This document shows, piece by piece, positions 38,300 through 52,727 of a stretch of 52,953 bases of DNA (its first letter is position 1; the number at the start of each line of letters is the position of its first letter). Below the pieces are notes generated by a model, which worked only from the letters and a program-made list of their open reading frames with translations, had not been told where the DNA came from and made no database searches. Origin of the DNA: a virus. The stretch spans positions 1 through 52,953 of the IMG/VR virus record IMGVR_UViG_3300031730_000007, one strand, 5' to 3'. A program made the translations under genes and the position numbers.

Positions 38300-38366
38300 A
38301 GGCGGGCGGTTCCTTCTGTTGAAAATGGATTGGAAAAATTTGCGGATCATCTGGCAAGGTTTACAG

Positions 38367-38387
38367 CTTATTGAACGCGCCCGTCAA
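38367..38387 (-). promoter_or_regulatory. Repeated dyad motif, copy 2 (operator candidate)
   Basis: Read leftward: TTGACGG-N4-GTTCAA then TAAG. It overlaps the stop of the PrimPol gene and lies about 68 bases upstream of the gene at 38299, where a promoter for the SSB-PolA operon would be. GTAAAC sits 17 bases after TTGACG. Confidence 0.6.
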
Positions 38388-40792
38388 GTACCCGTTGCAG
38401 CATTTTGAACGGCAGCGTCAGTTTGGTCCTGTTCATATCTTTTTGCGATCGCGCGAGGGTCGGTAAGGTTCGCTTTTATGTGACCTTTTTTGATAAATAG
38501 ACGTGGGCGGCTGCCTTCGGGTTTAACCGTAATTGTCGCCCGGCCTTGGTCAAATGCCGGGTGCCAGTCGTAACCGATACCCATAAGAATTTCGCGGCGT
38601 TTGCGGGGTGGAATACGACGGTGCAGCCCGATTCGTTCAAGTAGCCGGTCAAACATAATCGAAGAAATCCAGCCGCCCGCAAAGCCCGGCAAACCCTGTT
38701 CAACAGCTTCCATAATTTCCTGTTCAATGGTGCCCGCGCTGAGTTCAATCGCTTCGGCGGTGCTACTTGTCTTCGGCGCGCGGTGCAAGCCGCTGGCGGG
38801 GTTGTATTCAGTTTTGATCGCGTAAGTCCGAAGAAAATTGTTGATGACGGCAAAACCGTTCGTATTGTGATACCGGCCACGACCTTGGCACCAATCCCAA
38901 AGGTCTGGCATATAGTTTCCATCCATTCCGTCGCGCTCTAAGTCGCCGTCGTTCTGTTGCGCGGTGTAGAAAATACCCCATCGCCGGTCCTTGGTCGTCT
39001 TGGGTATGGCGTCTTTGTGATTGCTGCAAGCGATGATGTTCGCGCGATTGTCGCCGGTTACTTGGTCAACGCCCTTCGCCTGGATTTCCACGCGGCTATT
39101 GGTGATGATCGCTTTAAGCGTTTCGACCATGTTGCGCTTGTCATCGGTGCGAACTTCTTCAAAGCCAATAAAAATTTTCCCCTTTAACCATGCCGTGAAT
39201 TTTCCGCCGCTGTTTGCTAAGTCGTCAATGTTGGGAAGGTGGGTATAGCGTTCGCCGACGGCGCGGGAAATTGCGGTGATGATTAGGGTTTTGCCGTTGC
39301 CTTCTATCCCCTGAATGAGTGGTGCCCATTGGAATTTGTAGCCGGGATATTGCACAATTGCCGCAAGATAGGACGTTAGAATTTCGCGGTCACGTTCATC
39401 AGGGAATAGCTTTGCGATGTGGTTGGTGAAGGGCGTCGCGTCGCCTTCAAGGCATGGCGTATTGATTGGCCACCAGCTATTTGCAAGGACGCGGCCCGAA
39501 TCTTCAATGATGGCAGCGGGTGGGAGTTCTGGCCGAAAAACAAGATCGTGGGCGATGGGGCGTCGCAACGCTTTGTTTTGTGTGAAGGCTTCCCATGCAT
39601 CGCTAGAGATTTTTTCGTTCCGGTCGTCCATCAAGAAGGAATAACCGCCGTACACCACGCGGAAGGTTTCGGGCTTGATAATGTCGCCGCCGGGTATCAG
39701 CACGCGGTTTTGTGATTGGATATAAACGCAGCCCTTGAACATTGTCTGTTGGTCGGCAAGCGAAACAAACGTGCTGCCTTCCACCAATCGGGGCGCTGGC
39801 GCGTCTGTCGTGGCCGGTAGCGCCGACGAAACCAATTCAACCGGCTTGTCCTGCAATACCGCTGTTTGTCTGCCTACGGCGTTTTTGATCGTCAGTGTAA
39901 GGTATGTGCCTTGTGGTCGTGGACTGTCCCACTTCTCGCGCACCAATGCGCTTCGGCGCATCAGGCGTTCCATTCGTTCACAATCCTTGCCGGTCCAGAA
40001 TGCGAGGGCCTGGGCGAGTGATCCGTCCGCAGACGATTGATTGTAGCCGACGCCACCAGATTCCGGCCAATACTTCGCGAGGGCTTCCGCGTCACCGTCC
40101 CATAATTCGCGGAAGGTCGCTTTAAAGCCCAGTGCCGCCGACGCGCCGCCGACGGAATCGACCATGCGGGCAATCAATTCGTCGTCATCAGTATTGCCAC
40201 GCCAGTCCGGCACCGGGCCGGTGGACCATTCGCCGGTTATTTCATTGGGATCGCGTGTGAGATATTCGGCGACAAGCTGGGTGATTGCGTCGGTATGATC
40301 CGTAGCAACATCGCCTAAAGCGTCGCGGCCTGTAAGGGCGCAGAAACGGCCTGATGAATAGAACTCAAACCATTGGCCGTAGCGGGTTTTGTGATTGGGC
40401 GGCACGCTGCCAAGCCCTAGAAGGTGAAGACCCTCACCGGACGAACTGACTTCGACCGCGCAACCTGGGAAGCGACCAAGCAACGCGAGTGCATGCGGCA
40501 TCCACACACCGTCGGCGGCGCATTTGTCAATATCCATGAACCAAAACGGGTCGGTCGCGGTGATGACAAAGCCCACGCCGTATTCAGGGCCAAGTGATTC
40601 GGCTATCACGGCGGCTTCTTCCCACGTCAACCACATTGCTGGATCGTGCGCGCTTACAACGTCATGGGGTGGTGTTGGCCTAATGGGCCATTTGTCGGTC
40701 TTGCCCGGCCTAGACGCCGACGGCACCAACTTAAAGACGATAAATTGCCTGTACGCCCCAAGCATTGCCTGGGACGGGTGCAGTACAAACAT
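38384..40792 (-). CDS. PrimPol-helicase (NrS-1 polymerase-like)
   Basis: An 802-residue replication protein. The N-terminal archaeo-eukaryotic primase-polymerase domain has WFMDIDK (Asp87, Asp89) and VSSSGEGLHLLG (His123), the metal and nucleotide-binding motifs. A middle region leads to a superfamily 3 helicase domain with Walker A GIEGNGKT (495-502) and Walker B near 543-548 (KIFIGFEE). The C-terminal 150 residues are winged-helix-like. NrS-1 type enzymes initiate synthesis without a separate primer, which is notable as PolA is also present. Confidence 0.9.
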   Translation of the reverse strand: MFVLHPSQAMLGAYRQFIVFKLVPSASRPGKTDKWPIRPTPPHDVVSAHDPAMWLTWEEAAVIAESLGPEYGVGFVITATDPFWFMDIDKCAADGVWMPHALALLGRFPGCAVEVSSSGEGLHLLGLGSVPPNHKTRYGQWFEFYSSGRFCALTGRDALGDVATDHTDAITQLVAEYLTRDPNEITGEWSTGPVPDWRGNTDDDELIARMVDSVGGASAALGFKATFRELWDGDAEALAKYWPESGGVGYNQSSADGSLAQALAFWTGKDCERMERLMRRSALVREKWDSPRPQGTYLTLTIKNAVGRQTAVLQDKPVELVSSALPATTDAPAPRLVEGSTFVSLADQQTMFKGCVYIQSQNRVLIPGGDIIKPETFRVVYGGYSFLMDDRNEKISSDAWEAFTQNKALRRPIAHDLVFRPELPPAAIIEDSGRVLANSWWPINTPCLEGDATPFTNHIAKLFPDERDREILTSYLAAIVQYPGYKFQWAPLIQGIEGNGKTLIITAISRAVGERYTHLPNIDDLANSGGKFTAWLKGKIFIGFEEVRTDDKRNMVETLKAIITNSRVEIQAKGVDQVTGDNRANIIACSNHKDAIPKTTKDRRWGIFYTAQQNDGDLERDGMDGNYMPDLWDWCQGRGRYHNTNGFAVINNFLRTYAIKTEYNPASGLHRAPKTSSTAEAIELSAGTIEQEIMEAVEQGLPGFAGGWISSIMFDRLLERIGLHRRIPPRKRREILMGIGYDWHPAFDQGRATITVKPEGSRPRLFIKKGHIKANLTDPRAIAKRYEQDQTDAAVQNAATGT

Positions 40793-40807
40793 GAAAAATC
40801 CAGCCCG

Positions 40808-41167
40808 TTAAGCCAGCGTTGCCACGGCTAATTTTCTAACTTTTATTGGTGCGTTCAGCGCAAGCGCGTCCCGCGCAACGATACCTTGTGCAATGATAGG
40901 CAGCACAGAATTTTTTACGGCTTCGCGCATCACCGCCCGTTTCAATGCGGGCATTGTCGCCCAACGCAAAGAAATTAGACCGATGGAGCAACCAGCTTTT
41001 AAGGCAATATCATCGCGGGTCATCGTGTTATAGCCTTTAGTTACGGCCACGACTAAGGCGGCGTCCAAAATTTCACCCGCGCGATTAACGGGTTTTAGCC
41101 GTTTTGATTTGCGAATGCGCTTCTTCGGTTTTGCTCGCTTGGTCTTTTGCTTTTTCTTAGTCGGCAT
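40808..41167 (-). CDS. TetR-like DNA-binding protein, no ligand domain
   Basis: A 119-residue protein. A very basic N-terminus (PTKKKQKTKRAKPKKRIRKSKR) precedes a TetR-type helix-turn-helix (AGEILDAALVVAVTKGYNTMTRDDIALKAGCSIGLISLRWATMPALKRAVMREAVKNS at about 30-87). The protein stops shortly after, so it lacks the usual ligand-binding dimerisation domain. It is the best candidate for a phage regulator, and a copy of the dyad motif lies 15 bases upstream of its start. Confidence 0.75.
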   Translation of the reverse strand: MPTKKKQKTKRAKPKKRIRKSKRLKPVNRAGEILDAALVVAVTKGYNTMTRDDIALKAGCSIGLISLRWATMPALKRAVMREAVKNSVLPIIAQGIVARDALALNAPIKVRKLAVATLA

Positions 41168-41181
41168 TTAAACCCCGGTGT

Positions 41182-41202
41182 TGTACGGCGGTATTCAATA
41201 AG
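41182..41202 (+). promoter_or_regulatory. Repeated dyad motif, degenerate copy 3
   Basis: TGTACGG-N4-ATTCAA then TAAG, matching the motif at 14 of 17 fixed positions. It lies 15 bases upstream of the TetR-like gene and overlaps the end of the previous one. The left half-site is damaged, so affinity may be lower. Confidence 0.4.
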
Positions 41203-41440
41203 GCGTTTCGTGCATTATGTCCAGTTCGTTGCGAGCGCCCGGAACCGGGGAATAAAACCCGTTTGCGTACCAGACATTGACCCACGGTTCGGGGTCCAGA
41301 ACAAGGCCCTTCCAAAATAAATGACCTTCAATTCGCAATTCTTCTGTGATGAACGCCCGAAGCCCAGCCCGCAAAACGTAGCAACCGCCGATTTCGGGGC
41401 GCATAGCGACGCCGTGGTGGTAAACGGGGGCGTCGGTCAT
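41195..41440 (-). CDS. Small hypothetical protein
   Basis: An 81-residue protein starting at the ATG that overlaps the MazG-like stop (ATGA). Beta-like strands (GGCYVLRAGLRAFITEELRIEGHLFWKGLVLD) and several aromatic residues suggest a small barrel. It was formerly readable from 41461, but the coupled start is preferred. Family not recognised. Confidence 0.55.
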   Translation of the reverse strand: MTDAPVYHHGVAMRPEIGGCYVLRAGLRAFITEELRIEGHLFWKGLVLDPEPWVNVWYANGFYSPVPGARNELDIMHETPY

Positions 41441-41754
41441 GGCCGGATAAGCTTGAGCCATGCTTGCTTGTGTGCGAGTTTTTCAGCGACACGGTTCGGG
41501 TCGATTTGTCGGTTAAAATGTTCTTCGGCAAGAATGGACATTGCGCGGGCGTCGGCCATTTCTTCAAATATCGCGTCTTCATTCGGCTTTCCGGTTTTCG
41601 GATCAAGGCCGATGATTCCTTGAATTGTCGCGCGATGGCATATCGTGCTGAGTTCGGCGGCTTCTTCACCCAGTTTTCCAATAACCGCAACGGTGACTGG
41701 ATCACGTTCAGTTTGCCAATCGCTTGGCGCTTTCAGTTTCCCAGTGTCAACCAT
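41437..41754 (-). CDS. MazG-like nucleotide pyrophosphohydrolase
   Basis: A 105-residue helical protein. KLGEEAAELSTICHRA and IFEEMADARAMSILAEEHF supply the EExxE...ExxD metal-binding motifs of MazG-like all-alpha NTP pyrophosphatases. Phages use such enzymes to clear non-canonical dNTPs or lower (p)ppGpp. It lies close to ThyX, suggesting nucleotide-pool control. It overlaps its downstream neighbour by four bases. Confidence 0.75.
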   Translation of the reverse strand: MVDTGKLKAPSDWQTERDPVTVAVIGKLGEEAAELSTICHRATIQGIIGLDPKTGKPNEDAIFEEMADARAMSILAEEHFNRQIDPNRVAEKLAHKQAWLKLIRP

Positions 41755-41755
41755 T

Positions 41756-41839
41756 TTAGTACCCCAAAATTCTAAGGATCATTGCAGCCATGAAAAAGGC
41801 CGAACCGATAAAGCAAAGCCAGTCGGGAGCATGTGTCAT
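41756..41839 (-). CDS. 27-residue membrane microprotein
   Basis: A tiny frame MTHAPDWLCFIGSAFFMAAM... ending ILRILGY, hydrophobic throughout. The ATG overlaps the previous stop (ATGA) and it ends one base before the MazG-like ATG, so it fits the operon exactly. A membrane peptide is implied; function unknown. Confidence 0.5.
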   Translation of the reverse strand: MTHAPDWLCFIGSAFFMAAMILRILGY

Positions 41840-42066
41840 TCGTCTGCATCGTCCTTACCGTTGGGCACGCATTCAGCCTTGAACCATTGGTTATTGCGCT
41901 GCCGCCAGCCATATGCGCGAGCTTCGGCGCGAAGCTTTATAAAATCCGGCCCGCTATAGGCGTCGGCATGTGCGCGGCAGCCGGGCGCGTCGCATGAAAA
42001 TATAATGCACAATTCGCCCTCGCGAAGAACCTGCGTCGTTTTGATGCAAAGAATCGCTTGGCCCAT
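41836..42066 (-). CDS. Small zinc-ribbon-like protein
   Basis: A 76-residue protein. CDAPGCRAHADAYSGPDF...ARAYGWRQRNNQWFKAECVPN carries Cys pairs and a GW motif. The same layout (CDYPGCRATHKA...AKAAGWL...WLHFC) occurs in the protein at 44967 on the other strand, so the two appear to be diverged paralogues. A nucleic-acid or protein-binding zinc module is likely. ATG coupled by TAATG. Confidence 0.6.
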   Translation of the reverse strand: MGQAILCIKTTQVLREGELCIIFSCDAPGCRAHADAYSGPDFIKLRAEARAYGWRQRNNQWFKAECVPNGKDDADE

Positions 42067-42305
42067 TAGCGAATCGACATGACGACGTAACCGGCTTCAA
42101 TACCAAAAGCGGGACCGCGCAAGATATAGATGACCGCCCGCGTTGTGGTGCGTCCGGTGTAGGCTCGCAATTCCGGTTCATATTCTTGCAGTTCCAGCCA
42201 ATCGCCTTCATTAAAAATCCGGTCGTCCTTACGCACTTCAAAGGTCTTGCGCCCGTCCATGATGGCGACGAAAGAAGCGGGCCAAATTTTCAGCTTATGA
42301 ATCAT
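42066..42305 (-). CDS. DUF3850/ASCH-PUA-like RNA-binding protein
   Basis: A 79-residue protein. HKLKIWPASFVAIMDGRKTFEVRKDDRIFNEGDWLELQEYEPELRAYTGRTTTRAVIYIL...GIEAGYVVMSI matches the DUF3850 family, a PUA/ASCH-type beta-barrel thought to bind RNA or modified bases. Length is normal. Its stop overlaps the next ATG by one base. Confidence 0.8.
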   Translation of the reverse strand: MIHKLKIWPASFVAIMDGRKTFEVRKDDRIFNEGDWLELQEYEPELRAYTGRTTTRAVIYILRGPAFGIEAGYVVMSIR

Positions 42306-42787
42306 ATTGTGCTTTCATCCGTGATAAATTTCGCGTCGCCGCCCGCTTGGGTCACCAACTCAATCCATCGCAATTGAGCCTGTTCGCGCGGGGTGTCCTT
42401 GTACTGCCAATTTTGGTCCTTGACTTCCAGACTGACAAACTGCCCGATGGTCAAGCCGACGTGCCGCCCGGTTATCCGAATCGGGCGAATACCGATTAGA
42501 TCGCCCGATTTTATTTTTTCGTTCAGTGCCTTGGTGTCGTTGGCCAACCCGAATCGGATGAACCCGCCGCCGTCCGCGCGTTCAAACGCGCCGACGTTAT
42601 TGCGCCATAGGTGAAGGCCGCGCCGGGCCGCTTCAAGCCGGACTTGTGCCGACACCGCCGCTTCGGATGCGCCGGTAATACCGGTCGGCGAATGGGCATA
42701 TACGCCGTCCATGCCCCACATGGCGCGAAGCTCTTGGACCGCTGATGCGGATACGTTGTGCCGTGCTGCCCAGGTGCCTAGGTTCAT
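42302..42787 (-). CDS. VRR-NUC domain nuclease
   Basis: A 161-residue protein. After a helical N-terminal segment with a helix-turn-helix look (WAARHNVSASAVQELRAMWG), residues 48-150 match VRR-NUC: EAARRGLHLWRNNVGAFER...IKSGDLIGIRPIRI...GQFVSLEVKDQNW...REQAQLRWIELVTQAGGDAKFI, including the GD(L)...LEVK active-site residues. Standalone VRR-NUC proteins resolve branched DNA in phages. The N-terminal extension is unusual. Confidence 0.8.
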   Translation of the reverse strand: MNLGTWAARHNVSASAVQELRAMWGMDGVYAHSPTGITGASEAAVSAQVRLEAARRGLHLWRNNVGAFERADGGGFIRFGLANDTKALNEKIKSGDLIGIRPIRITGRHVGLTIGQFVSLEVKDQNWQYKDTPREQAQLRWIELVTQAGGDAKFITDESTI

Positions 42788-43182
42788 ACCGGTTCCGTTG
42801 TATAGTCAGCATGTTTTGTTTTCATGTGTGCGGCTAGATTGCTGAATGACCGCGTACAACATGGGCAAACGCCATTCCCGATTCGGCGCTTAACGCGAGT
42901 AACTACGCCTTTTGTCGCCGCCAAGCGGTTGGTGGTGTGCTTATGACTTTCCCGTTCTGTGTTCAAACGGTCTTGGTAAAATTGCGCGTCATGCTGGGCG
43001 GCGGCAAGTTTACGCTTCAATTTTTCTTCTTCGCTTTCCGTCGGGTAACTTTGCTTATGCCCGTTTGGGCACCACATGGTTGAATGATCGTTACGCTTCG
43101 CATGGTCCCATTCGGCTGGCACGGCAAAAGAAATGCCGCAGCTAGAGACACAACAGGTTTGAACAACGTATCCAACTAGCAT
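42784..43182 (-). CDS. Zinc-finger protein with coiled coil
   Basis: A 132-residue protein. The N-terminal CCVSSCG...MWCPNGH forms one metal site; residues about 48-100 are a coiled coil (EEEKLKRKLAAAQHDAQFYQDRLNTERESHKHTTNRLAATKG); the C-terminal CPCCTRSFSNLAAHMKTKH is a classical C2H2 finger. The ATG at 43182 sits inside the ThyX end. A DNA-binding early protein is inferred; similar proteins are widespread in phages. Confidence 0.7.
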   Translation of the reverse strand: MLVGYVVQTCCVSSCGISFAVPAEWDHAKRNDHSTMWCPNGHKQSYPTESEEEKLKRKLAAAQHDAQFYQDRLNTERESHKHTTNRLAATKGVVTRVKRRIGNGVCPCCTRSFSNLAAHMKTKHADYTTEPV

Positions 43183-43856
43183 TTCTGTTCCCACGCGGCC
43201 ACGCACACCGGCACGATTGGCCGGATTAAATCAAGCATGGCGTCGGCGTACACTCGAATTTCGCGCTGGGCGTGGCTGTCGCACCGCAGCGTCAGAAATT
43301 TGAATAGATTTAGAAGATCGACCGTCGCGAACATATGGCTATAGGTACAGAGCGGCAGCACGGCGCGAGCAAGTTCGCGCGGCCAACCGGACACCAAGAA
43401 CTCGCGATACAGCGCGAAGGCGTTAGAGCAATGCGCGTCGTACTTCACAATTTCTTCTTCCCGCAAAAGCCGCGTGGCGTCGTCTAGTTCGGTCAACTCG
43501 CGTGCTTGCTTGGTGCTTGTCGATTGCATCCCAATATCTTCGGGACGCGGGGTAAAGAAAATTTCCGGCAACTCCCGATAGCGTGCGGACAGTTCGTTGT
43601 ATGTCTGCGTCCGGTGCCGAAGCCACTGGCGAAAGGTAAAAATAGGCGCAAACACTTCAAAGGTGAACGTCACCGTTTCAAAGGGCGTTGTATGCTGGTT
43701 TCGCCAAAGGTAACGAATCAATTTGCTATCGCTGCCTTCATCTTCACCGGCCCGCCACGCCGCGTCGTAGGATACGCGGGCGGCGCGCACCACCGACAAG
43801 TCGGACCCCATGTGATCCACCAGCCGGACAAAGCCTTTGTCAAGAACGTCGGTCAT
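43176..43856 (-). CDS. thyX: Flavin-dependent thymidylate synthase ThyX
   Basis: A 226-residue enzyme making dTMP from dUMP with FAD, folate and NADPH. The signature RHR-x7-S reads RHRTQTYNELS at 80-90; FTFEVFAPIFTFRQW precedes it and YSHMFATVDLLNLFKFLTLR and AQREIRVYADAM follow as in the family. It is complete and of normal length. The neighbours DUF3310 and GapR are coupled to it. It supplies thymidine for phage DNA. Confidence 0.95.
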   Translation of the reverse strand: MTDVLDKGFVRLVDHMGSDLSVVRAARVSYDAAWRAGEDEGSDSKLIRYLWRNQHTTPFETVTFTFEVFAPIFTFRQWLRHRTQTYNELSARYRELPEIFFTPRPEDIGMQSTSTKQARELTELDDATRLLREEEIVKYDAHCSNAFALYREFLVSGWPRELARAVLPLCTYSHMFATVDLLNLFKFLTLRCDSHAQREIRVYADAMLDLIRPIVPVCVAAWEQKC

Positions 43857-44062
43857 CCGTTTTTGATTTCTTCATCAATATACCAACGCGCTTTTTTAAG
43901 GTCTTCAATTCGTTTCGTTGAATCCTTTTTCCCGGCGCGTGCGATATATTTTACCGCGTTTCCCAAGCAGAATCCAAGGCCCCATGCCCAAAGAACTTTA
44001 ATGACTTCGTAAGGATTATTTTCGCCGCCATAATGGTCGGGATCGTTCACTGGGTCGGACAT
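43853..44062 (-). CDS. DUF3310 protein
   Basis: A 69-residue protein. DPVNDPDHYGGENNPYEVIKVLWAWGLGFCLGNAVKYIARAGKKDSTKRIEDLKKARWYIDEEI matches DUF3310, the C-terminal part of T7 gp1.7-like nucleotide kinases. As a stand-alone unit its activity is unknown, but it is usually found among nucleotide-metabolism genes as here. The start at 44062 overlaps the GapR stop. Confidence 0.85.
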   Translation of the reverse strand: MSDPVNDPDHYGGENNPYEVIKVLWAWGLGFCLGNAVKYIARAGKKDSTKRIEDLKKARWYIDEEIKNG

Positions 44063-44328
44063 TAGCGCATATCCATCGCGGTTAAGTACAAATCCATCAT
44101 GGCTTCTTTTTCCTGAAAATCTGATTTGTCCAATTTTCGGCACCGGACGACGGCGCGCATAATAACCGTATCAAAGCCGGTGCCCTTGGCTTCGGAATAG
44201 ACTTCGCGAATGTCGGCAGTCAAAGCGGCTTTTTCTTCTTCCAGGCGTTCAATGCGCGCGATGAAAGACTTTAATTGCCCCTTGGCGAAGCCAGATTTTA
44301 CCTTGCTATTGTGACCAATACCTACCAT
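44062..44328 (-). CDS. GapR-family nucleoid protein (DUF2312)
   Basis: An 88-residue coiled-coil protein beginning GIGHNSKVKSGFAKGQLKSFIARIERLEEEKAALTADIREVYSEAKGTGFD, the hallmark of DUF2312/GapR. Caulobacter GapR encircles overtwisted DNA ahead of replication forks and stimulates topoisomerases. A phage copy may guard its own fast replication or subvert host chromosome dynamics. It starts 12 bases from a dyad motif shared with the divergent gene. Confidence 0.9.
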   Translation of the reverse strand: MVGIGHNSKVKSGFAKGQLKSFIARIERLEEEKAALTADIREVYSEAKGTGFDTVIMRAVVRCRKLDKSDFQEKEAMMDLYLTAMDMR

Positions 44329-44339
44329 TCGGACGCCTC

Positions 44340-44360
44340 TTGACGGTTGTGTTCAATAAC
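44340..44360 (+). promoter_or_regulatory. Repeated dyad motif, copy 4 (operator candidate)
   Basis: TTGACGG-N4-GTTCAA then TAAC in the 38-base gap between the divergent GapR gene and the rightward gene at 44367. The position makes it a likely shared control element for both directions. Its presence is also why the TTG at 44340 is rejected as a start. Confidence 0.6.
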
Positions 44361-44366
44361 GGCAAT

Positions 44367-44648
44367 ATGCCCGCGAATTTCAAGGATGACAAGCCCCCAA
44401 TGGGAACACGCGAAAACCCTGGCCGATTCGACGGATATGGCAAAGCCGAATCGAACGAACCGGTATTTACGTTGATAGGCCGCGATCCCGCCGCGCCGAA
44501 GTTAATTCGCGATTGGGTCAATCTGCACCGCGACGCCAAGACGGACGGCACGCAATTGATGGAAGCATTAGCCGTGGCCGATGCGATGGATAAGTACCGC
44601 ATGGAACGCAACGCCCGGCCACGTCCCCCGGTGCTTGACGCAGACTGA
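44367..44648 (+). CDS. Hypothetical protein, first of the inner rightward block
   Basis: A 93-residue protein beginning MPANFKDDKPPMGTRENPGRFDG. It has mixed alpha/beta character with LIRDWVNLHRDAKTDGTQLMEALAVADAMDKYRMER near the end. The ATG at 44367 is used because the only earlier codon lies in the dyad motif; no good Shine-Dalgarno is visible. Family not recognised. Confidence 0.55.
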   Translation: MPANFKDDKPPMGTRENPGRFDGYGKAESNEPVFTLIGRDPAAPKLIRDWVNLHRDAKTDGTQLMEALAVADAMDKYRMERNARPRPPVLDAD

Positions 44649-44794
44649 TGGAAGAACGTCGCATTCCCCGCCATGACGATAAACCGTGCGCGGTGTGCGA
44701 GGGGCGGCGCTGGGTTAAACGTCAGTATCCGAACGGCGACACTTATACCGCGCCATGCCCGGCATGCGTGCCGCCGAGGTCAAGCGAACGATGA
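44648..44794 (+). CDS. 48-residue zinc-binding protein
   Basis: A short frame with ATG overlapping the previous stop and its own stop overlapping the next ATG. CAVCEGRRWVKRQY...YTAPCPACVP gives two CxxC pairs spaced as in a DnaJ-type or rubredoxin-like zinc knuckle, with basic residues between. A small nucleic-acid-binding protein is possible. Confidence 0.6.
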   Translation: MEERRIPRHDDKPCAVCEGRRWVKRQYPNGDTYTAPCPACVPPRSSER

Positions 44795-45218: not shown

Positions 45219-45280
45219 GATGTGAATGGGCACGAAAAGCCCGACTACCTACTGCTATTGGAAGGTGCTAAAATGCCGAA

Positions 45281-45595: not shown

Positions 45596-45677
45596 AGAGT
45601 GAGCGCATCGCGCGGTCGATCAGTTCGCCGCCACCACGCATCAGCTAATCGACAAGAATTGAATGGAGCGTCTGCAC

Positions 45678-45863: not shown

Positions 45864-45873
45864 GAGCCCCCAC

Positions 45874-46212: not shown

Positions 46213-46214
46213 CG

Positions 46215-46394
46215 ATGGCATCACGGCCTCCGTTTCAGAAATGTTTGGTGTGCGGTGAGCGGCTGCAATTCGTGGCCGTCGATAGGCCAAATCCTCGCCG
46301 CCTGATGCGCCCCACCGAATACGACCAGCTTCCGCACGAATGCCCGGCTGCTGCTGTCGAGGCTTTCAAGAAACAGATCGGGGCAGGCACATGA
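46215..46394 (+). CDS. 59-residue zinc-finger-like protein
   Basis: A small protein MASRPPFQKCLVCGERLQFV... with CLVCG at 10-14 and later HECP, a possible C2HC site, ending in a helical EAFKKQIGAGT. It is preceded by TGGAGCC and its stop overlaps the next ATG. Function unknown. Confidence 0.55.
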   Translation: MASRPPFQKCLVCGERLQFVAVDRPNPRRLMRPTEYDQLPHECPAAAVEAFKKQIGAGT

Positions 46395-46645
46395 GAAGGA
46401 TAGAGCCAACGGCGGCACACAGGGCCTTTCGTGACGACATGATCGAAGTCCTGCGAAAACATGGAGCCAGTCTGGCATCGTGGGAATTGCTGGCGCTATC
46501 GGCCCACCTGACCGGACAAATTATCGCGCTACAGGATCAGCGCACCATGTCGCCAGAAGCGGCCATGAACATCGTCGCGGAGAATATCGAAAAGGGAAAC
46601 AAGGAAGTGATCGACGGGCTGGCAAACCCGTTGGGCACCTCCTAG
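46391..46645 (+). CDS. Hypothetical helical protein
   Basis: An 84-residue protein with its ATG coupled (ATGA). It is helical with an amphipathic core (FRDDMIEVLRKHGASLASWELLALSAHLTGQIIALQDQRTMSPEAAMNIVAENIEKGN). Helix length and charge pattern suggest a dimeric helical bundle. Family not recognised. Confidence 0.55.
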   Translation: MRRIEPTAAHRAFRDDMIEVLRKHGASLASWELLALSAHLTGQIIALQDQRTMSPEAAMNIVAENIEKGNKEVIDGLANPLGTS

Positions 46646-46658
46646 GGGAGCGTTCGAT

Positions 46659-46910
46659 ATGGAGCGTCTGGAAATGCCACTCTACAAAACCGCGCGCGCC
46701 GATTTCGAGTATCTCGAAACACTGGCAGAATTGGAGGATCAGGTTGACCTTGACAGCCAGCGCGAAGCTTTGATGCAGAGCCCGACCAAGGCGACTGCTC
46801 GCGATCTATATTGCCAAGCCGTTGGGCTTTGGCTTGGCGAACACAAGCAAGAATTTGCCGACGATCCGAAGGTGAAGCGGATGCTCACCCGGTACGACGG
46901 CTATTACTGA
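46659..46910 (+). CDS. Hypothetical helical protein
   Basis: An 83-residue protein. GGGGAGCG six bases before the ATG at 46659 supports this start; the leader ATGGAGCGTCTGGAA then offers a second site for an ATG at 46674. The product is helical and acidic (FEYLETLAELEDQVDLDSQREALMQ...). No family recognised. Confidence 0.5.
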   Translation: MERLEMPLYKTARADFEYLETLAELEDQVDLDSQREALMQSPTKATARDLYCQAVGLWLGEHKQEFADDPKVKRMLTRYDGYY

Positions 46911-46920
46911 GGAGCGGACA

Positions 46921-47151
46921 ATGGGAAGAAAATGGCTTGTAAAAAAGTGTCCGTTCTGTGGTGCAGCACCCAGGATGGTGAATTGGCACGGCGGCGGTCC
47001 GGCGAAGGTCGCAATCCTGTGCCGTGATGATTATTGCGACGCCTCGCCAATGGTGACGGGGCATACGCCCGCTGTTGCCGCTCAACGCTGGAACGCACGC
47101 AAAACCACTCGCAAGATGGGCCTTCTGTCCGTCAGCACACACTTGGATTGA
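46921..47151 (+). CDS. Lar-like restriction alleviation protein
   Basis: A 76-residue protein with GGAGCG before the ATG. KKCPFCGAAPRMVNWHGGGPAKVAILCRDDYCDASPMV...AVAAQRWNARK carries the CPFCG, second Cys pair and final W-N-R of the Lar family, whose Rac prophage member Lar dampens type I restriction. Counter-defence is therefore plausible but many Lar-like proteins are untested. It ends eight bases from the converging helicase. Confidence 0.75.
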   Translation: MGRKWLVKKCPFCGAAPRMVNWHGGGPAKVAILCRDDYCDASPMVTGHTPAVAAQRWNARKTTRKMGLLSVSTHLD

Positions 47152-47159
47152 TGGAGCGT

Positions 47160-48797
47160 TTACGCGGTAGCTTCGGTCAAGGCAACATCGCCCGCGACCG
47201 CCATAGCTAATTCACCAGCTTCCCGCGCGCCCAGCGTTTGAGCGGTCATCACGTCAGTTCCGAACGTCAGGAAAAACAGCCGGTGAATTTCCCGGTCGGA
47301 CAGCCCGGCGTCGCGTTGATACCCGGCCCAAAGCTGAATCGACTTACGCAAGGGTGCCTGGGCTTGCTGGCGTTCAACATGGCGCTTATGGATGGCACCG
47401 GCAGCCGGGCCGCGCAACCCTTCCGGCACACGGCACACCCCGTCAATCCGGCTGATTTCGCCCCGAAGGGCTTTCAGGGTCGCCGGGTCTAGTTCCACTA
47501 GATCGCCGTCCACCATCTTCGGTTCGGACCGCCCGCGTGGTTCTGGCAGGGCTTCGCCGCAGAAGGGGCAGCAATCGCGGAAACGCTCAAACGCCCGTGT
47601 GCAGCCGATACAGGCCCGCAAAAGCTCGCGCCCAGCCATGACGTTGTAAGCGCCCCGCCGCTCGCGCCGGTCCAAGGTCCAATCGCGGTCGCGGTCGGGC
47701 AGCCCGTGGCGTTCCCAGTTGCCCACATGGTCTAGGATCGTGGCTTGCGTCTTGCCGTCCAGAAGCCGCAGCGCCCGCCCAAATTGCTGGGCGTACAGGG
47801 CATAAGAATCGGTCAAGCGGCCCATTGACACGCATTCGATTGCTGGCACGTCCACGCCTTCGCCCAGCAAGTCCACGTTCACTAGCTGCATCACGTCGCG
47901 CGACCGAAACCGGCGCATGATTGAAAATCGAAGGGTGTCGGGCGTCTTGGCCGTGACGCATTCAGCGGCGACACCAGCCGAACGGTAAGCCTGGGTAATC
48001 TCCTGGGCATGTTCCACGTCCACCGCGAAAGTGACGCCCAGTTGCCCGCGACAGTGCTTTAGATAGGTCTGTACGATGTCGCCGGTAATGTGGGCCTCAT
48101 GCGTTGCTTTCCGCAAGGCCGGTTGGGAGAAGTCGCCGTTCGCTGCGTGTGGAATATCGGCGGCGATCAAAGCCGACGGCGGGCACAATAATCGGTAGTC
48201 GGTCAAGTATCCCATTTCGATAAGCTCGCGCATGGATGGGCCGACAACCATTGCGTCCATGACACCATCAGCATGACGGCCAAGGCCATATCCATCGGCG
48301 CGTAAAGGCGTGGCCGTCCAACCTATGCCGCGTGCATTGGGAAACAGTTCAACGGCTTTGCCCCATTTGTTGTCGCGCAACAGATGGTGCGTTTCGTCGG
48401 TCTGCCAAAGAGTGACTTGCTTAAACCAAGGTTCGTCGCGGCGCACGAGCGTATCCACACCGGCCACGGCACAAAGCGAATTGCTATCGTAAAATGACCG
48501 GCCAAGTTCGTCCATGTGGATGCGGACGCAATTTCGCACCACGTCGTCGGAACCGATCACACGATGCCGGATGAAATTGCGCGCAAGCGATAGGGACATT
48601 TGCGAAACGAGTTCATGCCGGTGCGCGATCCCGACCGATGCGCCCCACCGGTTGTCTATGTGCTGCTTGAATTTCGCGGCCATGTTGACGGTCTTGCCGC
48701 CGCCGGTCGGGGCTACGGCGCACACGTTGCGATTACCGGCTGCCCATTCGCGGTCAATCGCATGGTCAATGTCTTGCTGATACGGGCGAAGGATCAT
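47160..48797 (-). CDS. DEAD/DEAH-box SF2 helicase with zinc site
   Basis: A 545-residue helicase. Motif I APTGGGKT at 29-36, DETH at 133-136, GWTATPLRADG, and motif VI QQFGRALR are all present, so it should be active. A CIGC...CCPFCGE cluster near 395-415 adds a zinc element, and the C-terminal 120 residues are helical. Such proteins act in replication restart or branch migration in phages. A 12-codon leader overlaps its start. Confidence 0.9.
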   Translation of the reverse strand: MILRPYQQDIDHAIDREWAAGNRNVCAVAPTGGGKTVNMAAKFKQHIDNRWGASVGIAHRHELVSQMSLSLARNFIRHRVIGSDDVVRNCVRIHMDELGRSFYDSNSLCAVAGVDTLVRRDEPWFKQVTLWQTDETHHLLRDNKWGKAVELFPNARGIGWTATPLRADGYGLGRHADGVMDAMVVGPSMRELIEMGYLTDYRLLCPPSALIAADIPHAANGDFSQPALRKATHEAHITGDIVQTYLKHCRGQLGVTFAVDVEHAQEITQAYRSAGVAAECVTAKTPDTLRFSIMRRFRSRDVMQLVNVDLLGEGVDVPAIECVSMGRLTDSYALYAQQFGRALRLLDGKTQATILDHVGNWERHGLPDRDRDWTLDRRERRGAYNVMAGRELLRACIGCTRAFERFRDCCPFCGEALPEPRGRSEPKMVDGDLVELDPATLKALRGEISRIDGVCRVPEGLRGPAAGAIHKRHVERQQAQAPLRKSIQLWAGYQRDAGLSDREIHRLFFLTFGTDVMTAQTLGAREAGELAMAVAGDVALTEATA

Positions 48798-48832
48798 CCG
48801 GCACGGAATGCGCGAGTGGTGCGGTAGGTCAT
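48794..48832 (-). CDS. Possible 12-residue leader peptide
   Basis: MTYRTTRAFRAG, with its stop overlapping the helicase ATG (ATGA) and GGCAGG upstream. Arg and Thr are over-represented. It may be a translational-coupling leader or chance; four-base overlap with the helicase is the local style. Confidence 0.3.
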   Translation of the reverse strand: MTYRTTRAFRAG

Positions 48833-48956
48833 TTGCCTGCCGTCAGAATGCAATATAATTTTGTGTGGCCAACCGCGCGGCAATCATGCCACCGATAAAT
48901 TTGCCACCACACAGAAAAAATTACCACGATGGAAAGAAGGACGGGTGCGACATATC

Positions 48957-49511
48957 TCACGGCTTGCCACCGCAGCGAATCCAAAGGCAAGTTGTGGCGT
49001 GCGGTTCGTTATCGGCTTCGCCGCAGAATATGCAATAATCCGGCGCACCGTCATAAGGATTCAACGCCGCGAACTCGCTTGCCGGGATCAGCACCGCCGG
49101 ATCGCCGTCGCGCAATGATGCTTCATACTGGCGACCGGCTTCAAATCCGGCCATGCGCACCGCCGCTTCCGCTGGTGTGTCTTTCGGATAATCGCGCGGG
49201 GTGTATACGTTCAGCACTCCGCTATGAATTTTCATGCTGGTGTTGGTCATGTGCCGAACGTCCCTATGAAGACAATATGAATTTTCGATTCGCGATGGCC
49301 ATAATAACCGCTGGCGCGGATCAGTGACAGTCTTTCCGTTTTTGTCGCATGTGGCAACTAATATCCGGCCAGCGAATTTTACTGGGTCCAGCACGATCAT
49401 AAACCGACGGCGTTTCATGTGGCGGCTGCGACCACCACTGTATATCGACTCGTAAATCTGCCCGCGCGCAATGTTGGTAAGATTGGGCCGATTGCTGCGC
49501 CGGGTTGTCAT
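48957..49511 (-). CDS. Hypothetical protein with zinc knuckle C-terminus
   Basis: A 184-residue protein starting at the ATG coupled to the upstream stop. The first 80 residues are basic and beta-like (RRRFMIVLDPVKFAGRILVATCDKNGKTVTDPRQR); the remainder is mixed and ends with YCIFCGEADNEPHATTCLWIRCGG, a four-Cys, one-His metal knuckle. No family recognised. 48798-48956 after it holds no other gene, only the leader and an AT-rich patch. Confidence 0.55.
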   Translation of the reverse strand: MTTRRSNRPNLTNIARGQIYESIYSGGRSRHMKRRRFMIVLDPVKFAGRILVATCDKNGKTVTDPRQRLLWPSRIENSYCLHRDVRHMTNTSMKIHSGVLNVYTPRDYPKDTPAEAAVRMAGFEAGRQYEASLRDGDPAVLIPASEFAALNPYDGAPDYCIFCGEADNEPHATTCLWIRCGGKP

Positions 49512-49771
49512 CCGAACGCCAGCGCAGCACCGACAGCCATCGCGCCCAGGCAAAGGATGCCAAACCATGTCGCAACAGCGTGGCCGTCTACGCGTGCCCT
49601 AGGCGGTGTGATACTGGATTTCTGAATGCGCGAAATCATACCGTCGGACGACCGTACTTCAATATCCCAAGCACGTTCGCGGCATTCGGCGGCGTACAAT
49701 GGATCACGAACGGGGATACCGGCGCGGCGGGCGTAGGTGGCAAGGCGTCCATAGGTTGGATGGGTGTTCAT
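49508..49771 (-). CDS. Small protein with C-terminal membrane segment
   Basis: An 87-residue protein: a hydrophilic, Arg-rich first part (ATYARRAGIPVRDPLYAAECRERAW) and a hydrophobic end (WFGILCLGAMAVGAALAFG) that should anchor it in the membrane. Coupled on both sides by four-base overlaps. Role unknown. Confidence 0.55.
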   Translation of the reverse strand: MNTHPTYGRLATYARRAGIPVRDPLYAAECRERAWDIEVRSSDGMISRIQKSSITPPRARVDGHAVATWFGILCLGAMAVGAALAFG

Positions 49772-49992
49772 TGGTCGGCCCCTTCTAAGATGCGTTTGTT
49801 ATTATATGCGCGCTCCAAGTCGTCTAGCAATTGCGCGCGATTCGTCGGCGCAAGGTCTTGAAGATCGCGCCACATACGCGACACCGGCCACGATCCAGCG
49901 GAATTGAGCTGCGGAAATAGATAGGTAAATAGCACGCCGAAGCGATGACGTTCAGCTTGGGCGGTCGTGCTGCGGTTGGGATGGTTGGCCAC
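49768..49992 (-). CDS. Hypothetical protein, GTG start
   Basis: A 74-residue helical protein (FGVLFTYLFPQLNSAGSWPVSRMWRDLQDLAPTNRAQLLDDLERAYNN). The GTG overlaps the upstream stop by one base (TAGTG). Family not recognised. Confidence 0.55.
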   Translation of the reverse strand: MANHPNRSTTAQAERHRFGVLFTYLFPQLNSAGSWPVSRMWRDLQDLAPTNRAQLLDDLERAYNNKRILEGADQ

Positions 49993-50465
49993 TATTCGCC
50001 CGCTCTTTCCGCACAGACAATAAGTGGGTTTAGTTTTTCGTTGATGGCGTCAATTTTGTCGTGGTATTCCGTTGTCATTTTACTGCAAGCATCGGACAAA
50101 ACGCGGCGTTCTTCGATTAACGACCGGGCTTCGGGGTCATATGTCGTACGATTGCGAAGTACCTCACCCTTGTCCGTGACGAACTTGAAGCCATAATTTG
50201 ATTTCTCCCGACCGACGATACGAACTGTTTGGATGATGAGGTTATTGCGGTCTTCGGGGTTGTGAATTTCTAAAATCACGTCGCGTGCTTCAAATCCAAT
50301 CGCGGGGTCAAGTTTGGTCGTGATGGATTCCCAGGACGGGCCGCTGAACTTTTGCGTTCCGATGGTGGCAACGAACAGAAGGTTTTTAAATCCTTCCACG
50401 CGGACTTCAACGCCGCGATAATTACCGACAACGGCGATTGTTTTCTGTTTTTCAGGGGTAGTCAT
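49992..50465 (-). CDS. Hypothetical protein of the early operon
   Basis: A 157-residue protein using the ATG at 50465 that overlaps the stop of the next upstream gene; a longer reading from 50672 would swallow that gene. It has a beta-rich first half (KTIAVVGNYRGVEVRVEGFKNLLFVATIGTQKF) and a helical C-terminal half (SLIEERRVLSDACSKMTTEYHDKIDAINEKLNPL). Family not recognised. Confidence 0.6.
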   Translation of the reverse strand: MTTPEKQKTIAVVGNYRGVEVRVEGFKNLLFVATIGTQKFSGPSWESITTKLDPAIGFEARDVILEIHNPEDRNNLIIQTVRIVGREKSNYGFKFVTDKGEVLRNRTTYDPEARSLIEERRVLSDACSKMTTEYHDKIDAINEKLNPLIVCAERAGE

Positions 50466-50620
50466 TTTGCGGATTTCTTTCGTTTGGTGGGGGTGATCGT
50501 GACAGGGATTGCTTTGGTCTTCCAGCATTTGCAAAATTCGCGGGACGGCTTTTTCCATTCCAAGGCTATTGGGCAAGAAGCGTTCGGTTCGGAAAATATA
50601 ATCCAGCCGGTCCACTTCAT
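50462..50620 (-). CDS. 52-residue basic protein
   Basis: A small protein MKWTGWIIFSEPNASCPIAL... ending TPTKRKKSAK, with AAGGA eight bases before the ATG at 50620. It resembles short phage proteins with an initial WxGWxxxS segment followed by a basic helix. It overlaps both neighbours by four bases. Function unknown. Confidence 0.55.
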   Translation of the reverse strand: MKWTGWIIFSEPNASCPIALEWKKPSREFCKCWKTKAIPVTITPTKRKKSAK

Positions 50621-50766
50621 TTCGCACGGTCCTTTTCTTTGCGTAGTCGAAGACGGGATTTTGCCAGCGCATTGCCGCGATGTTCGCCGGTCCATGCTTC
50701 TAGCGCCGCAATCACGTCTTCAAGCTCGCGTTGGGTGTAGCGGTTCAACTGGCGGCGGGGTTTCAT
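50617..50766 (-). CDS. 49-residue basic helical protein
   Basis: A short frame MKPRRQLNRYTQRELEDVIA... ending RLRLRKEKDRAK, rich in Arg and Lys, with an amphipathic helix. Overlaps of four bases at both ends argue that it is real. Possible nucleic-acid binder. Confidence 0.55.
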   Translation of the reverse strand: MKPRRQLNRYTQRELEDVIAALEAWTGEHRGNALAKSRLRLRKEKDRAK

Positions 50767-51653
50767 TCATTCTCCCAATTGTCGGCCACGTCTTGTAGTT
50801 CGGCGCGGGCTTTTTCTTCCGCCCGTTTGCTGGCTGCCCACGCCTTGCCGTCAATTTCGTCGGCGATTGCTTCCTGTATCAGTTCTTCAATCACCTTCGG
50901 ACTAAGGGCGTCCAATTCCCAGGATTGATTGCCGAACTTCTTCACGTACCCAGCCGCGCGGCTATCGGTCATCTTCGCGGGATTGGGCGGCGGGCGGTAT
51001 TGCTTCACTTGGTCAAAGTTCAGCGCAAGGCGCTTCACTTCAATGTCGGCACCCTCACCAAACAATTCCAGACGGGCGATATTATCGCGCGTCATGTCGA
51101 TACCGGACGGATCATGGTCGCCCAGGTGTAGGACTTTTACCGGCTGGCCGAAATCTTCATAGTATTCCTTCATACGAACGCCAGCACGCCATAATTCGGA
51201 TTGACTGACGTTGCCACGACACGCGAAATACGGGACGCGGTAGCGACCGGCGACGCGTTCAATCACGCCAACCAACGCTTCTTTTTCTACCCATATTTCA
51301 ATTCTGACGGGTTGCTTCAACCACCAATCATATTTGAATGTCTTCGCGCACGTTTCAATAATATCGGCGGGGCTGTTCCAAGTCGAAGGGCTTTCAAGAT
51401 TGCGCGTGCGGTCTTCAATCGCTTCCCAGTCGATAAGACCGGCAAGCCGACCATCGTTGATGATGGACCCGATTCGCTTGTAGTCCTTCATCGTATTGGC
51501 CGAAAGATCGCGCGCCACGAACTGATAATATAATTGCCGAAGCGTGAGTGTGTAGCCTTGCGCGCGATAGTCACTGATGATGACGTTCGCTTGGTCAATA
51601 ACGCGCTGACTGGAAGCGTTGAACCGTTTGGGGGTATAGGCGATATGGGGCAT
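50763..51653 (-). CDS. Spo11/topoisomerase VI-A-like Toprim protein
   Basis: A 296-residue protein. RQLYYQ at 39-44 occupies the place of the winged-helix catalytic tyrosine in Topo VI-A/Spo11; the Toprim domain supplies EIWVEKEAL (Glu113) and LGDHDPSGIDM (Asp169, Asp171). A QSELWRAG segment and helical C-terminus follow. No Topo VI-B partner is encoded here, matching single-subunit 'mini-A' proteins reported in mobile elements. It may cut DNA with 5' tyrosine linkages or act as a decatenation factor with host partners. Confidence 0.75.
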   Translation of the reverse strand: MPHIAYTPKRFNASSQRVIDQANVIISDYRAQGYTLTLRQLYYQFVARDLSANTMKDYKRIGSIINDGRLAGLIDWEAIEDRTRNLESPSTWNSPADIIETCAKTFKYDWWLKQPVRIEIWVEKEALVGVIERVAGRYRVPYFACRGNVSQSELWRAGVRMKEYYEDFGQPVKVLHLGDHDPSGIDMTRDNIARLELFGEGADIEVKRLALNFDQVKQYRPPPNPAKMTDSRAAGYVKKFGNQSWELDALSPKVIEELIQEAIADEIDGKAWAASKRAEEKARAELQDVADNWENE

Positions 51654-51820
51654 CACGCACCCCCTTTCAACAACGCATCATAGAAGACCGCCAGCACAAC
51701 GGACGGCATGTCGCGCATCCCGCGAATAACGTGGCGGGGGCCGTGGGCTGTATCTGGCAAAGCTTCTAGCGTAGCGATTAGAGCGGCGCGGACCTTCATT
51801 GCTTTTTCGCCGTCGGTCAT
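51653..51820 (-). CDS. 55-residue helical protein
   Basis: A short protein MTDGEKAMKVRAALIATLEA... ending VFYDALLKGGA, lying one base after the previous stop and overlapping the Spo11-like start. Helical, with an amphipathic pattern. Function unknown. Confidence 0.55.
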   Translation of the reverse strand: MTDGEKAMKVRAALIATLEALPDTAHGPRHVIRGMRDMPSVVLAVFYDALLKGGA

Positions 51821-51821
51821 C

Positions 51822-52070
51822 TTATGCGCCCTCCATCAGCTTGACCGCTTCGGCAAGCAAAGGCTTGATCGAAAATTCAGCCTTAACGCGCGTGCCGTCC
51901 GGCCCGTGGATTTCCACCATGTCGCCGAAAATCCAAATATCCAATTTGCCGACGGAGGATATGCACGACCCAACGTGCTGGCCGAAGCCCCGGAAGAAAT
52001 CGCGCTTGCGCGGGTCATACACGGCAACGTCGGTCGTTGCTGGCGCGGTCTTTATAATACCGTCGGTCAT
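51822..52070 (-). CDS. Hypothetical protein with promoter upstream
   Basis: An 82-residue protein MTDGIIKTAPATTDVAVYDP..., beta-rich (LDIWIFGDMVEIHGPDGTRVKAEF). It is the first gene after a gap holding a recognisable TATAAT/TTGACG promoter and thus begins a leftward transcript. Family not recognised. Confidence 0.6.
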   Translation of the reverse strand: MTDGIIKTAPATTDVAVYDPRKRDFFRGFGQHVGSCISSVGKLDIWIFGDMVEIHGPDGTRVKAEFSIKPLLAEAVKLMEGA

Positions 52071-52142
52071 CTAAAAATTCCCGCCCCTGAAAACCGCCGA
52101 GGCGCGCGGTCCGTGTGCAACCAAGCAAACGGTATGTCTGTT

Positions 52143-52169
52143 ATTATACGGTTCCGTCAGTAGCGTCAA
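52143..52169 (-). promoter_or_regulatory. Promoter candidate for the leftward operon
   Basis: Read leftward: TTGACG (52169-52164), 15 bases, then a perfect TATAAT (52148-52143). The spacing is short of the ideal 17. It lies 73 bases upstream of the gene at 52070 in the 95-base gap 52071-52165. Confidence 0.5.
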
Positions 52170-52273
52170 GGGGTGGGAACGAACACCAACACATCATTGA
52201 ACAGGCCCAATGCCACGACGGCCACCACGAACATTGCGCCATAGCAGAATGCACGGGCTTCACGGTCGTTCAT
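52166..52273 (-). CDS. 35-residue membrane microprotein
   Basis: MNDREARAFCYGAMFVVAVV... ending LVFVPTP, one hydrophobic segment behind a charged start. The ATG overlaps the previous microprotein stop (ATGA). Function unknown. Confidence 0.5.
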   Translation of the reverse strand: MNDREARAFCYGAMFVVAVVALGLFNDVLVFVPTP

Positions 52274-52377
52274 TGCATGGACCCAGCGGGCATGGACGCA
52301 AGGAACAGCACGAACCACCATAGAGCGGCGAATGCGCTTGCGCCCCCGACGATACAACAAATGCGCCACGTTTTCAT
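52270..52377 (-). CDS. 35-residue membrane microprotein
   Basis: MKTWRICCIVGGASAFAALW... ending ASMPAGSMQ, almost wholly hydrophobic. Its ATG overlaps the stop of the gene at 52377-52646 by one base and its stop overlaps the next ATG. The two adjacent membrane peptides may act as a pair. Confidence 0.5.
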   Translation of the reverse strand: MKTWRICCIVGGASAFAALWWFVLFLASMPAGSMQ

Positions 52378-52646
52378 TAAGCACCCCCGATGACGGTTGA
52401 AATAACTTCAAATTCAAAGTTTTTAAGTTCCGTGCGGCGGTCTTTCTTCGCCCAGCTATTATGGAAATTAAAATCTTGGGCTGCCGATTTCATGCCGCGT
52501 GCGTAAGCCTGACAAAAACCAGCGTTGCCGTGCATCTTACCTTCGGCGTCAACAGCCCACCAACGCCAAGCGTGGGAATAGTGGCGGCGGCTGTTCTTGA
52601 TGACGCGGGTTTGGCCGTTCGAGAAGGTGGCGACGATGCGGGCCAT
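52377..52646 (-). CDS. Hypothetical protein
   Basis: An 89-residue protein with AAGGA eight bases before its ATG. ARIVATFSNGQTRVIKNSRRHYSHAWRWWAVDAEGKMHGNAGF, then a charged helix. Basic and aromatic, possibly nucleic-acid binding. It is the first gene downstream of the dyad motif at 52707. Family not recognised. Confidence 0.6.
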   Translation of the reverse strand: MARIVATFSNGQTRVIKNSRRHYSHAWRWWAVDAEGKMHGNAGFCQAYARGMKSAAQDFNFHNSWAKKDRRTELKNFEFEVISTVIGGA

Positions 52647-52706
52647 TCGGATATTCCTTGCCCCTGAACGGTCCGAGGCGCAACCAACTCAAACAATATG
52701 GGCTAA

Positions 52707-52727
52707 CTGACGGCAGTGTTCAATAGC
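52707..52727 (+). promoter_or_regulatory. Repeated dyad motif, copy 5 (operator candidate)
   Basis: CTGACGG-N4-GTTCAA then TAGC, 61 bases upstream of the leftward gene at 52646. Read leftward it also supplies TTGAAC, 17 bases, CATATT (52723-52695), a usable promoter for that gene. One base differs from the perfect dyad. Confidence 0.55.

Follow-up and report, generated by a model that had tools for sequence, protein, structure and literature searches.

A spaced dyad at gene borders of a contractile-tailed phage as probable operator of a TetR-type regulator within sigma70-type promoters

TetR-family repressors (PF00440) act at dyad operators that overlap promoters and often regulate their own genes, and the lambda-type repressor and Cro use multiple operators. 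Host regulators also bind spaced dyads, among them the iron regulator RirA at its IRO box, TGA-N9-TCA. How early genes are shut off is not known to have been described for many of the lytic phages that depend on the host RNA polymerase. Here we analyze a repeated motif with the core TTGA-N9-TCAA at gene borders of the virus record IMGVR_UViG_3300031730_000007 (positions 1 to 52,953, the whole stretch of 52,953 nucleotides, hereafter the window), together with a small TetR-like protein encoded at 40808 that is its candidate binder. Passages of PMC9437464 on alphaproteobacterial phages describe sites for the host regulator CtrA, TTAA-N7-TTAA, and those of PMC5686142 on the Enc34/Nazgul-like replication module mention a putative transcription factor, for which they give no operator, target or promoter.

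The window shares features with each of these systems. The operators of lambda repressor and Cro dimers overlap sigma70 promoters, as we propose here, but those of the window are distributed along the genome, one per border. The RirA box resembles the window dyad in spacing but not the N8 form found in other phages. With the TetR family the 40808 protein has the helix-turn-helix in common; the approximately 43 residues that follow it leave no room for the usual ligand-binding domain, and the motif has many copies over the phage genome rather than one local operator. The replication genes of the window phage form a set similar to that of the Enc34/Nazgul-like module as the passages of PMC5686142 present it. 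In the CtrA-controlled phages, as far as the PMC9437464 passages go, regulator sites are repeated in intergenic regions, as here, but there the regulator is the host's and its site TTAA-N7-TTAA, whereas the window has TTGA-N9-TCAA and would be served by a phage regulator. Our literature search, in openly readable main texts, found no description of the motif; a term look-up in parts of PMC9007800, PMC12518310, PMC10276810, PMC8465730 and PMC7789013 returned no such motif, and a passage of PMC12518310 reports a transcriptional regulator beside a primase. Judging from sequence comparisons, the copies are probably operators of one phage-encoded regulator, most likely a TetR-type repressor that blocks the -35 element, built into sigma70-type promoters.

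Six copies were found in the window, four of them strong. On the plus strand, 3253..3273 (TTGACGGCCCTGTTCAATAGC) comes after the gene that follows the terminase (2774-3256) and ~80 bases before a structured RNA; 44340..44360 (TTGACGGTTGTGTTCAATAAC) lies in a 38-base gap between gapR (minus strand) and a plus-strand gene opening at 44367 or 44400; and 52707..52727 (CTGACGGCAGTGTTCAATAGC), with its first base changed, precedes the minus-strand gene at 52646. The fourth strong copy, 38367..38387 on the minus strand (TTGACGGGCGCGTTCAATAAG), precedes a replication unit. A degenerate copy at 41182..41202 (plus strand, TGTACGGCGGTATTCAATAAG) stands 15 bases before the TetR-like gene, and a weak one at 52140..52160 (minus strand, CTGACGGAACCGTATAATAAC) precedes the minus-strand gene at 52070, with an upstream region like that of the 52646 gene. 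An earlier sequence-only reading had given five coordinates (3253, 44340, 52707 and 41182 on the plus strand, 38387 on the minus), all correct, comprising the four strong sites and one weak. Its statement that there was no other copy holds for strong copies in a matrix scan but misses the one at 52160, which is as weak as the fifth. The reading also placed site 38367 before an SSB-PolA operon; the unit does hold a single-stranded-DNA-binding protein (SSB) and a DNA polymerase gene, but starts with a gene of unknown function (37586-38350), which is followed by an exonuclease, a Gp2.5-like SSB and the polymerase.

By our own gene set, at least 13 of the 17 dyad bases are non-coding at all six sites, a property of 8.0% of 17-mers, which bears out the claim that the five sites first noted lie at gene borders. 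At two strong sites, 3253 and 38387, the dyad and the upstream gene's stop codon overlap: the TGA of the 2774-3256 gene falls inside TTGACGG, and the other is the primase stop. The flanks of the 3253 site lengthen its dyad to CTATTGA-N9-TCAATAG. The scanning matrix was built from the four strong sites, which match by construction (29-32 bits); the copies at 52160 (17.1 bits) and 41182 (16.6) are followed by a next match at 13.4. No spaced 7+8 word (spacings 3-6) other than TTGACGG-N4-GTTCAATA occurs three times in the window. That the copies are chance repeats, or the functionless relic of small duplications, is extremely unlikely. Three exact copies are not extreme alone, as 1 of 60 dinucleotide shuffles gave some 7+8 triple, and the 52707 and 52160 copies sit in similar leaders, as duplication might leave them; but all six sites lie at borders, a relative carries dyads at matching places, and a near-identical dyad sits on promoter-like sequence in other phages.

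The relative is the IMG/VR stretch L019, whose terminase, portal, protease and g190 are 68%, 56%, 49% and 39% identical to those of the window. TTGAC-N7-GTCAA with at most two mismatches occurs three times in its 13.3 kb and no more, each time at a gene border by inspection, two of them at syntenic places. The copy at 3709 (TTGACGCGGGCGGTCAA), which is symmetrical, lies after the terminase and before the structured RNA, as does 3253 in the window; the copy at 840 (minus strand, TTGACGGTCGCGTTCAATAGT) is the counterpart of 52707, with a similar upstream region; and the third, at 312 (minus strand, TTGACGCCCACGTACAATAAG), has the same form as the 52160 site. The last two precede genes with a leader found before four small genes, two in L019 and those at 52646 and 52070 in the window, and composed of GCGCCTCG and then a G-rich stretch before the start codon. 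This leader (minus strand of the window, 52635-52745 and 52062-52180; L019, 228-330 and 753-850) perhaps forms a stem-loop.

The 19-base word is present in 68 IMG/VR stretches, a number that we estimate to be near chance level. When 26 window proteins were tried against them, relatives of several turned up in L019 alone, and L015, L027, L039 and L043 gave one match each. The 21-base pattern matched twice, inside large open reading frames (ORFs) of L007 and L008, two contigs whose ORFs are laid out alike, and both matches were set aside. A further relative, L208 (portal 60%), begins at the portal, and its record gave one motif match at three mismatches, equal to a control pattern. The word CAAGCCCCCGANGGGCGG from the RNA was present in nine IMG/VR stretches, of which only L019 matched window proteins. 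Single-protein searches of IMG/VR found nothing or missed L019, and loci fetched with a terminase alignment contained no close relative carrying the motif except L019.

The motif reaches beyond this phage, and its upstream half-site can double as a -35 hexamer; neither point was in the sequence-only reading. When the non-coding DNA of the Klebsiella phage KpV52 was searched for 21-mers resembling the motif, seven copies of a TTGACG-N4-CGTCAA form came out. An unbiased search of non-coding DNA for dyads, with every 6-mer as half and gaps of 0-12, put dyads of the TTGAC type whose halves are N6 apart first or tied for first in KpV52 (8), the second Klebsiella phage Kp_cmc20193 (14), MSW-3 (6-7) and Scuro (6); a second search with 5-mer halves and a coding background placed TTGAC-N6 in the best four for three of the four phages, KpV52 being the exception. 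Pooling KpV52, MSW-3, Scuro, SppYZU01 and MR14, which were chosen because they show the dyad, ranked TTGAC-N6 first of 1024 x 13 (31 seen versus 3.4 expected), with at least two sites in 5/5. PEAT2, like SppYZU01 and MR14, also has it. The hosts of phages with the near-identical word are Klebsiella, Pectobacterium, Edwardsiella (MSW-3), Acinetobacter (Scuro), Shewanella and Pseudomonas.

In these phages a -10-like hexamer (TAGAGT, TACACT, CATACT, TAATAT and others) comes at N17 after the upstream half-site, as a rule on the strand facing the next gene. Seven phages were counted as dyad-positive, that is, with at least three gap-6 dyads having a -10 at N16-18; in them 60 of 91 gap-6 dyads have such a -10, versus 10 of the 56 whose gaps are 3-5 and 8-10. 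Fifty-five distinct sites, all selected because a -10 lies at N17, have the consensus TTGACG-NNN-CCGTCAATA; the window word TTGACGG-NNN-TGTTCAATA is close to it, one base longer, and fits the conserved ATA outside the dyad. Dyads precede the TetR-like gene (KpV52 41620, Kp_cmc 41495, MSW-3 36927, Scuro 21959), the unit of first gene, exonuclease and SSB (KpV52 38170, MSW-3 34326, Scuro 26265, window 38387) and the SSB gene (KpV52 35500, MSW-3 32079, Scuro 28350, SppYZU01 32535). KpV52, MSW-3, Scuro and SppYZU01 have matches to the window's exonuclease, SSB and helicase and to the gene that opens the unit behind 38387, and the primase too is common to the window and KpV52/MSW-3. At E 1e-3 the window DNA polymerase matches those of Scuro and SppYZU01 and none in KpV52 or MSW-3.

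The freest test of dyad spacing is a set of 80 IMG/VR loci taken, without use of the motif, from the DNA-polymerase matches listed, with at most one mismatch allowed in the dyad; the set includes near-duplicates (L252/L253 and L289/L290 have equal counts), so that locus counts here, as in the 58 genomes or loci below, overstate independence. For TTGAC-Nx-GTCAA, x=6 gave 215 dyads, 90 with a -10, and each of x=2-5 and 7-11 gave 24-50, with 0-4 having one; 23 of the 80 listed loci have at least two dyad promoters. Control loci chosen by terminase gave, at gap 6, 61 dyads with two -10 boxes (79 loci) and 40 with one (46 loci). In loci L009-L074, which were selected by the motif, gap 7 is in excess, as expected (95 dyads, 14 with a -10; gap 6, 33 and 7).

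The fixed relation to a -10 bears on the reading of the motif as a promoter type for a phage RNA polymerase or a special sigma factor, with no operator at all, which is very unlikely. The word is directional and ends in ATA(A/G)(C/G), much as promoters of single-subunit polymerases do, but it is a dyad, symmetrical at L019 3709 and elsewhere at a fixed distance from a sigma70-like -10. None of the eight window ORFs of at least 500 residues matches an RNA polymerase in PHROGs, one of the eight having no match at all and smaller ORFs having been scanned in part; the host polymerase is therefore the likely reader. A directional T7-like promoter, which the right end TTCAATAG resembles, was dropped: we saw no polymerase of that kind, the site forms a dyad, and in other phages the -10 lies at N17. 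The sigma54 and extracytoplasmic-function sigma factor consensus forms did not fit by eye.

These observations are consistent with a simple mechanism. A TTGAC half-site with its mirror would form a dyad for a dimer, and the upstream half-site would serve as -35 hexamer too, with the -10 ~17 bases downstream. Since the half-site is the -35 itself, a dyad-bound protein would have to compete with sigma70, region 4 of which could not occupy the site together with it, and because of this competition the regulator most likely represses. The promoters of the gammaproteobacterial phages are near consensus and should fire unaided, so that repression would be the natural sign. They would fire on phage entry and shut as the regulator accumulates, in many phages its own promoter included; in the window that regulator would be the small TetR-type protein encoded at 40808-41167.

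Whether the window sites are complete promoters bears on the opposite sign, in which the TetR-like protein or another factor activates transcription by bringing polymerase to the dyad, much as phage activators do at the middle promoters that need them. A single window site, 52707, passes our -10 test: on its minus strand, TTGAAC-N17-CATATT faces the 52646 gene. The hexamers GTAAAC (38364-38359) and CAATAT (44363-44368) fail it, the test detects no -10 at 3253 or 52160, and 41182 has none. Weak -10 boxes of this kind are what activator-dependent promoters would show, and the orientation kept in the consensus, TTGACG first and TCAATA second, likewise favors activation. We nevertheless regard it as quite unlikely: the TTGACG-N17-TANNNT arrangement elsewhere is near the sigma70 consensus and should need no activator, and the factor would cover the -35 itself. 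Beside the 44340 site, a leftward promoter-like pair TTGTCA/CATATT spans 44392-44364; the consensus scan that gave it found fewer pairs (6) than did shuffles (mean 9.2).

The 40808 protein (40808..41167, minus strand, 119 residues) adjoins the primase and has a TetR-type helix-turn-helix at residues 33-76. It scores 26.8 bits against PF00440 (cut-off 24), matches phrog_8723 at 1.7e-25 and, among TetR-type chains of the PDB, 3mvp (E 0.0014) and 4uds (E 0.0077). With 119 residues in all, it shows no C-terminal ligand-binding or dimer domain, which takes ~100 residues or more. At E 0.01, homologues occur in 90 phage records, next to the primase in several of those examined; 15 of them measure 77-166 residues, the two longest having extra N-terminal sequence. 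All seven homologues scanned match phrog_8723 (weakest 8.4e-10), and four of the seven exceed the PF00440 cut-off. A single-sequence structure model was of low confidence (pLDDT 52) and was not used. In Scuro (L228 21424-21924) and SppYZU01 (L224 38065-38565) the protein has an extra N-terminal region, and the family profile counts two domains there, as if a second, degenerate copy were present.

The link between protein and dyad is positional. Of 58 genomes or loci with a homologue, close relatives included, 21 have a dyad where the TetR-like gene starts, versus 2.05 expected, and 15 of these 21 have a -10 in the gene's direction. PEAT2 and CKB-S1, fetched after the pattern was noticed, fit it, the PEAT2 protein being nearly that of Klebsiella phages. 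MR14 and VP_EVC, meant as TetR-negative controls, proved to carry homologues, which leaves vsMR as the only homologue-negative record among the named phages; it has four gap-6 dyads, one with a -10. The regulon with a dyad operator that the sequence-only reading proposed is well supported by L019 and the other phages, and its candidate binder is favored, circumstantially, by these gene-start dyads.

Another phage protein or a host regulator might instead bind the dyads, which would still be operators, the TetR-like gene being merely one target. For this speak the 18 comparison phages with a homologue, of which 11 lack dyad promoters and seven have at least three dyads with a -10, as well as dyad loci without a homologue in the stretch covered (0.45 dyads with a -10 per 10 kb, versus 0.81 where it is present, a comparison confounded by locus length). 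A host regulator has its precedent in the CtrA sites of alphaproteobacterial phages that passages of PMC9437464 describe. We consider this account unlikely: a host factor of one specificity across phages of six genera and the window phage would be less expected, the TetR-like protein is the one small regulator recognised in all (small proteins were compared in part), and the dyads favor its own gene start.

Besides the 11 phages and the homologue-free loci, several results weigh against a TetR-type repressor at these sites. Nine of the 11 showed no comparable dyad, and nine belong to a single clade of weak support; in Psp6, not one of the 12 dyads has a -10. A recognition-helix glycine first seemed to mark the dyads (7/8 versus 0/10) and failed in 40 further loci (14/23 versus 6/17, p = 0.20). 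The control loci, too, are richer in gap-6 dyads than in other gaps, to a milder degree and with hardly any having a -10. In the window, unbiased dyad searches did not single out the motif, and the half-sites differ consistently (TTGACGG versus TATTGAAC), unlike a perfect dimer site. Instead of the TTGAC-N6-GTCAA form, the window and L019 have N7, one base longer, the rest of the word being close. The 52707 site is oriented opposite to its counterpart at L019 840, although a dyad permits either direction. Finally, only two of the nine window and L019 sites (52707 and L019 840) pass the -10 test, which is of E. coli type. The failing sites have weak hexamers such as CTATAC, CAATAT and GTAAAC, some of which, for instance CTATAC at L019 3709, we take to resemble alphaproteobacterial -10 boxes.

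More generally, lytic phages of Gamma- and Alphaproteobacteria with related replication genes may use a single minimal repressor of TetR type, lacking a ligand domain, as timer for the whole genome, with the operator merged into the -35 of early and middle promoters, often including its own, and with protein and operator spacing (16 or 17 bp) coevolving; we offer this as a real possibility, somewhat short of probable. If true, a motif readable from sequence alone in cultured and uncultured phages, often where one conserved small gene starts, would predict promoters, their direction and their regulator, phrog_8723, a family listed as unknown, would gain a suggested function, and a compact repressor-promoter pair would become available for laboratory use.

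The ends of the record overlap by 206 bases with one mismatch, which indicates a circular genome of ~52.7 kb, so that site 52707 is not close to any true end. By PHROGs and profile matches the phage is contractile-tailed (portal, protease, sheath, tape measure); it encodes a primase, exonuclease, Gp2.5-like SSB, DNA polymerase and helicase for replication, and also ThyX and GapR. No lysogeny genes were seen among the window proteins scanned, a scan that covered part of the ORFs. The primase (38384..40792, minus strand, phrog_1829) sits between the TetR-like gene and the 38387 site, behind which the first gene (37586..38350, minus strand, phrog_11133) has a likely start at ~38299 with AGAAGGA upstream. 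The gene at 44062..44328 (minus strand), the first of the leftward unit beside the 44340 site, had already been named gapR, correctly (PF10073, 7e-31), and suggests an alphaproteobacterial host. The gene behind 52707 (52377..52646, minus strand) encodes 89 residues of unknown function, and its leader holds GCGCCTCG.

For the structured RNA after the 3253 site, Rfam gave no window match at gathering scores. Two hairpin-like units, GAYGGGCG...CGCCCAAAGGGTTT, lie at 3354-3420 and 3520-3600, and one similar unit, at 3800-3890 in L019, follows the dyad there; we regard them as a candidate conserved phage RNA. Exactly two copies of GATGACAAGCCCCC (44385-44398 and 3351-3364) lie each downstream of a strong site and may be due to chance, as 6 of 100 shuffles give two matches with at most two mismatches. 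An AT-rich divergent gap at 619-961, between the genes at 618 (minus) and 962 (plus), has a similar gap at ~1500-1900 in L019 and is possibly the main promoter region or an origin. A small protein at 46921-47151 shows a sub-threshold match to the restriction alleviation protein Lar (PF14354, 26.7 bits versus a cut-off of 28.6). Dyads of another type, ATATA-N3-TATAT, are enriched outside genes in two Jedunavirus genomes, L223 and L231, with 10 and 14 sites.

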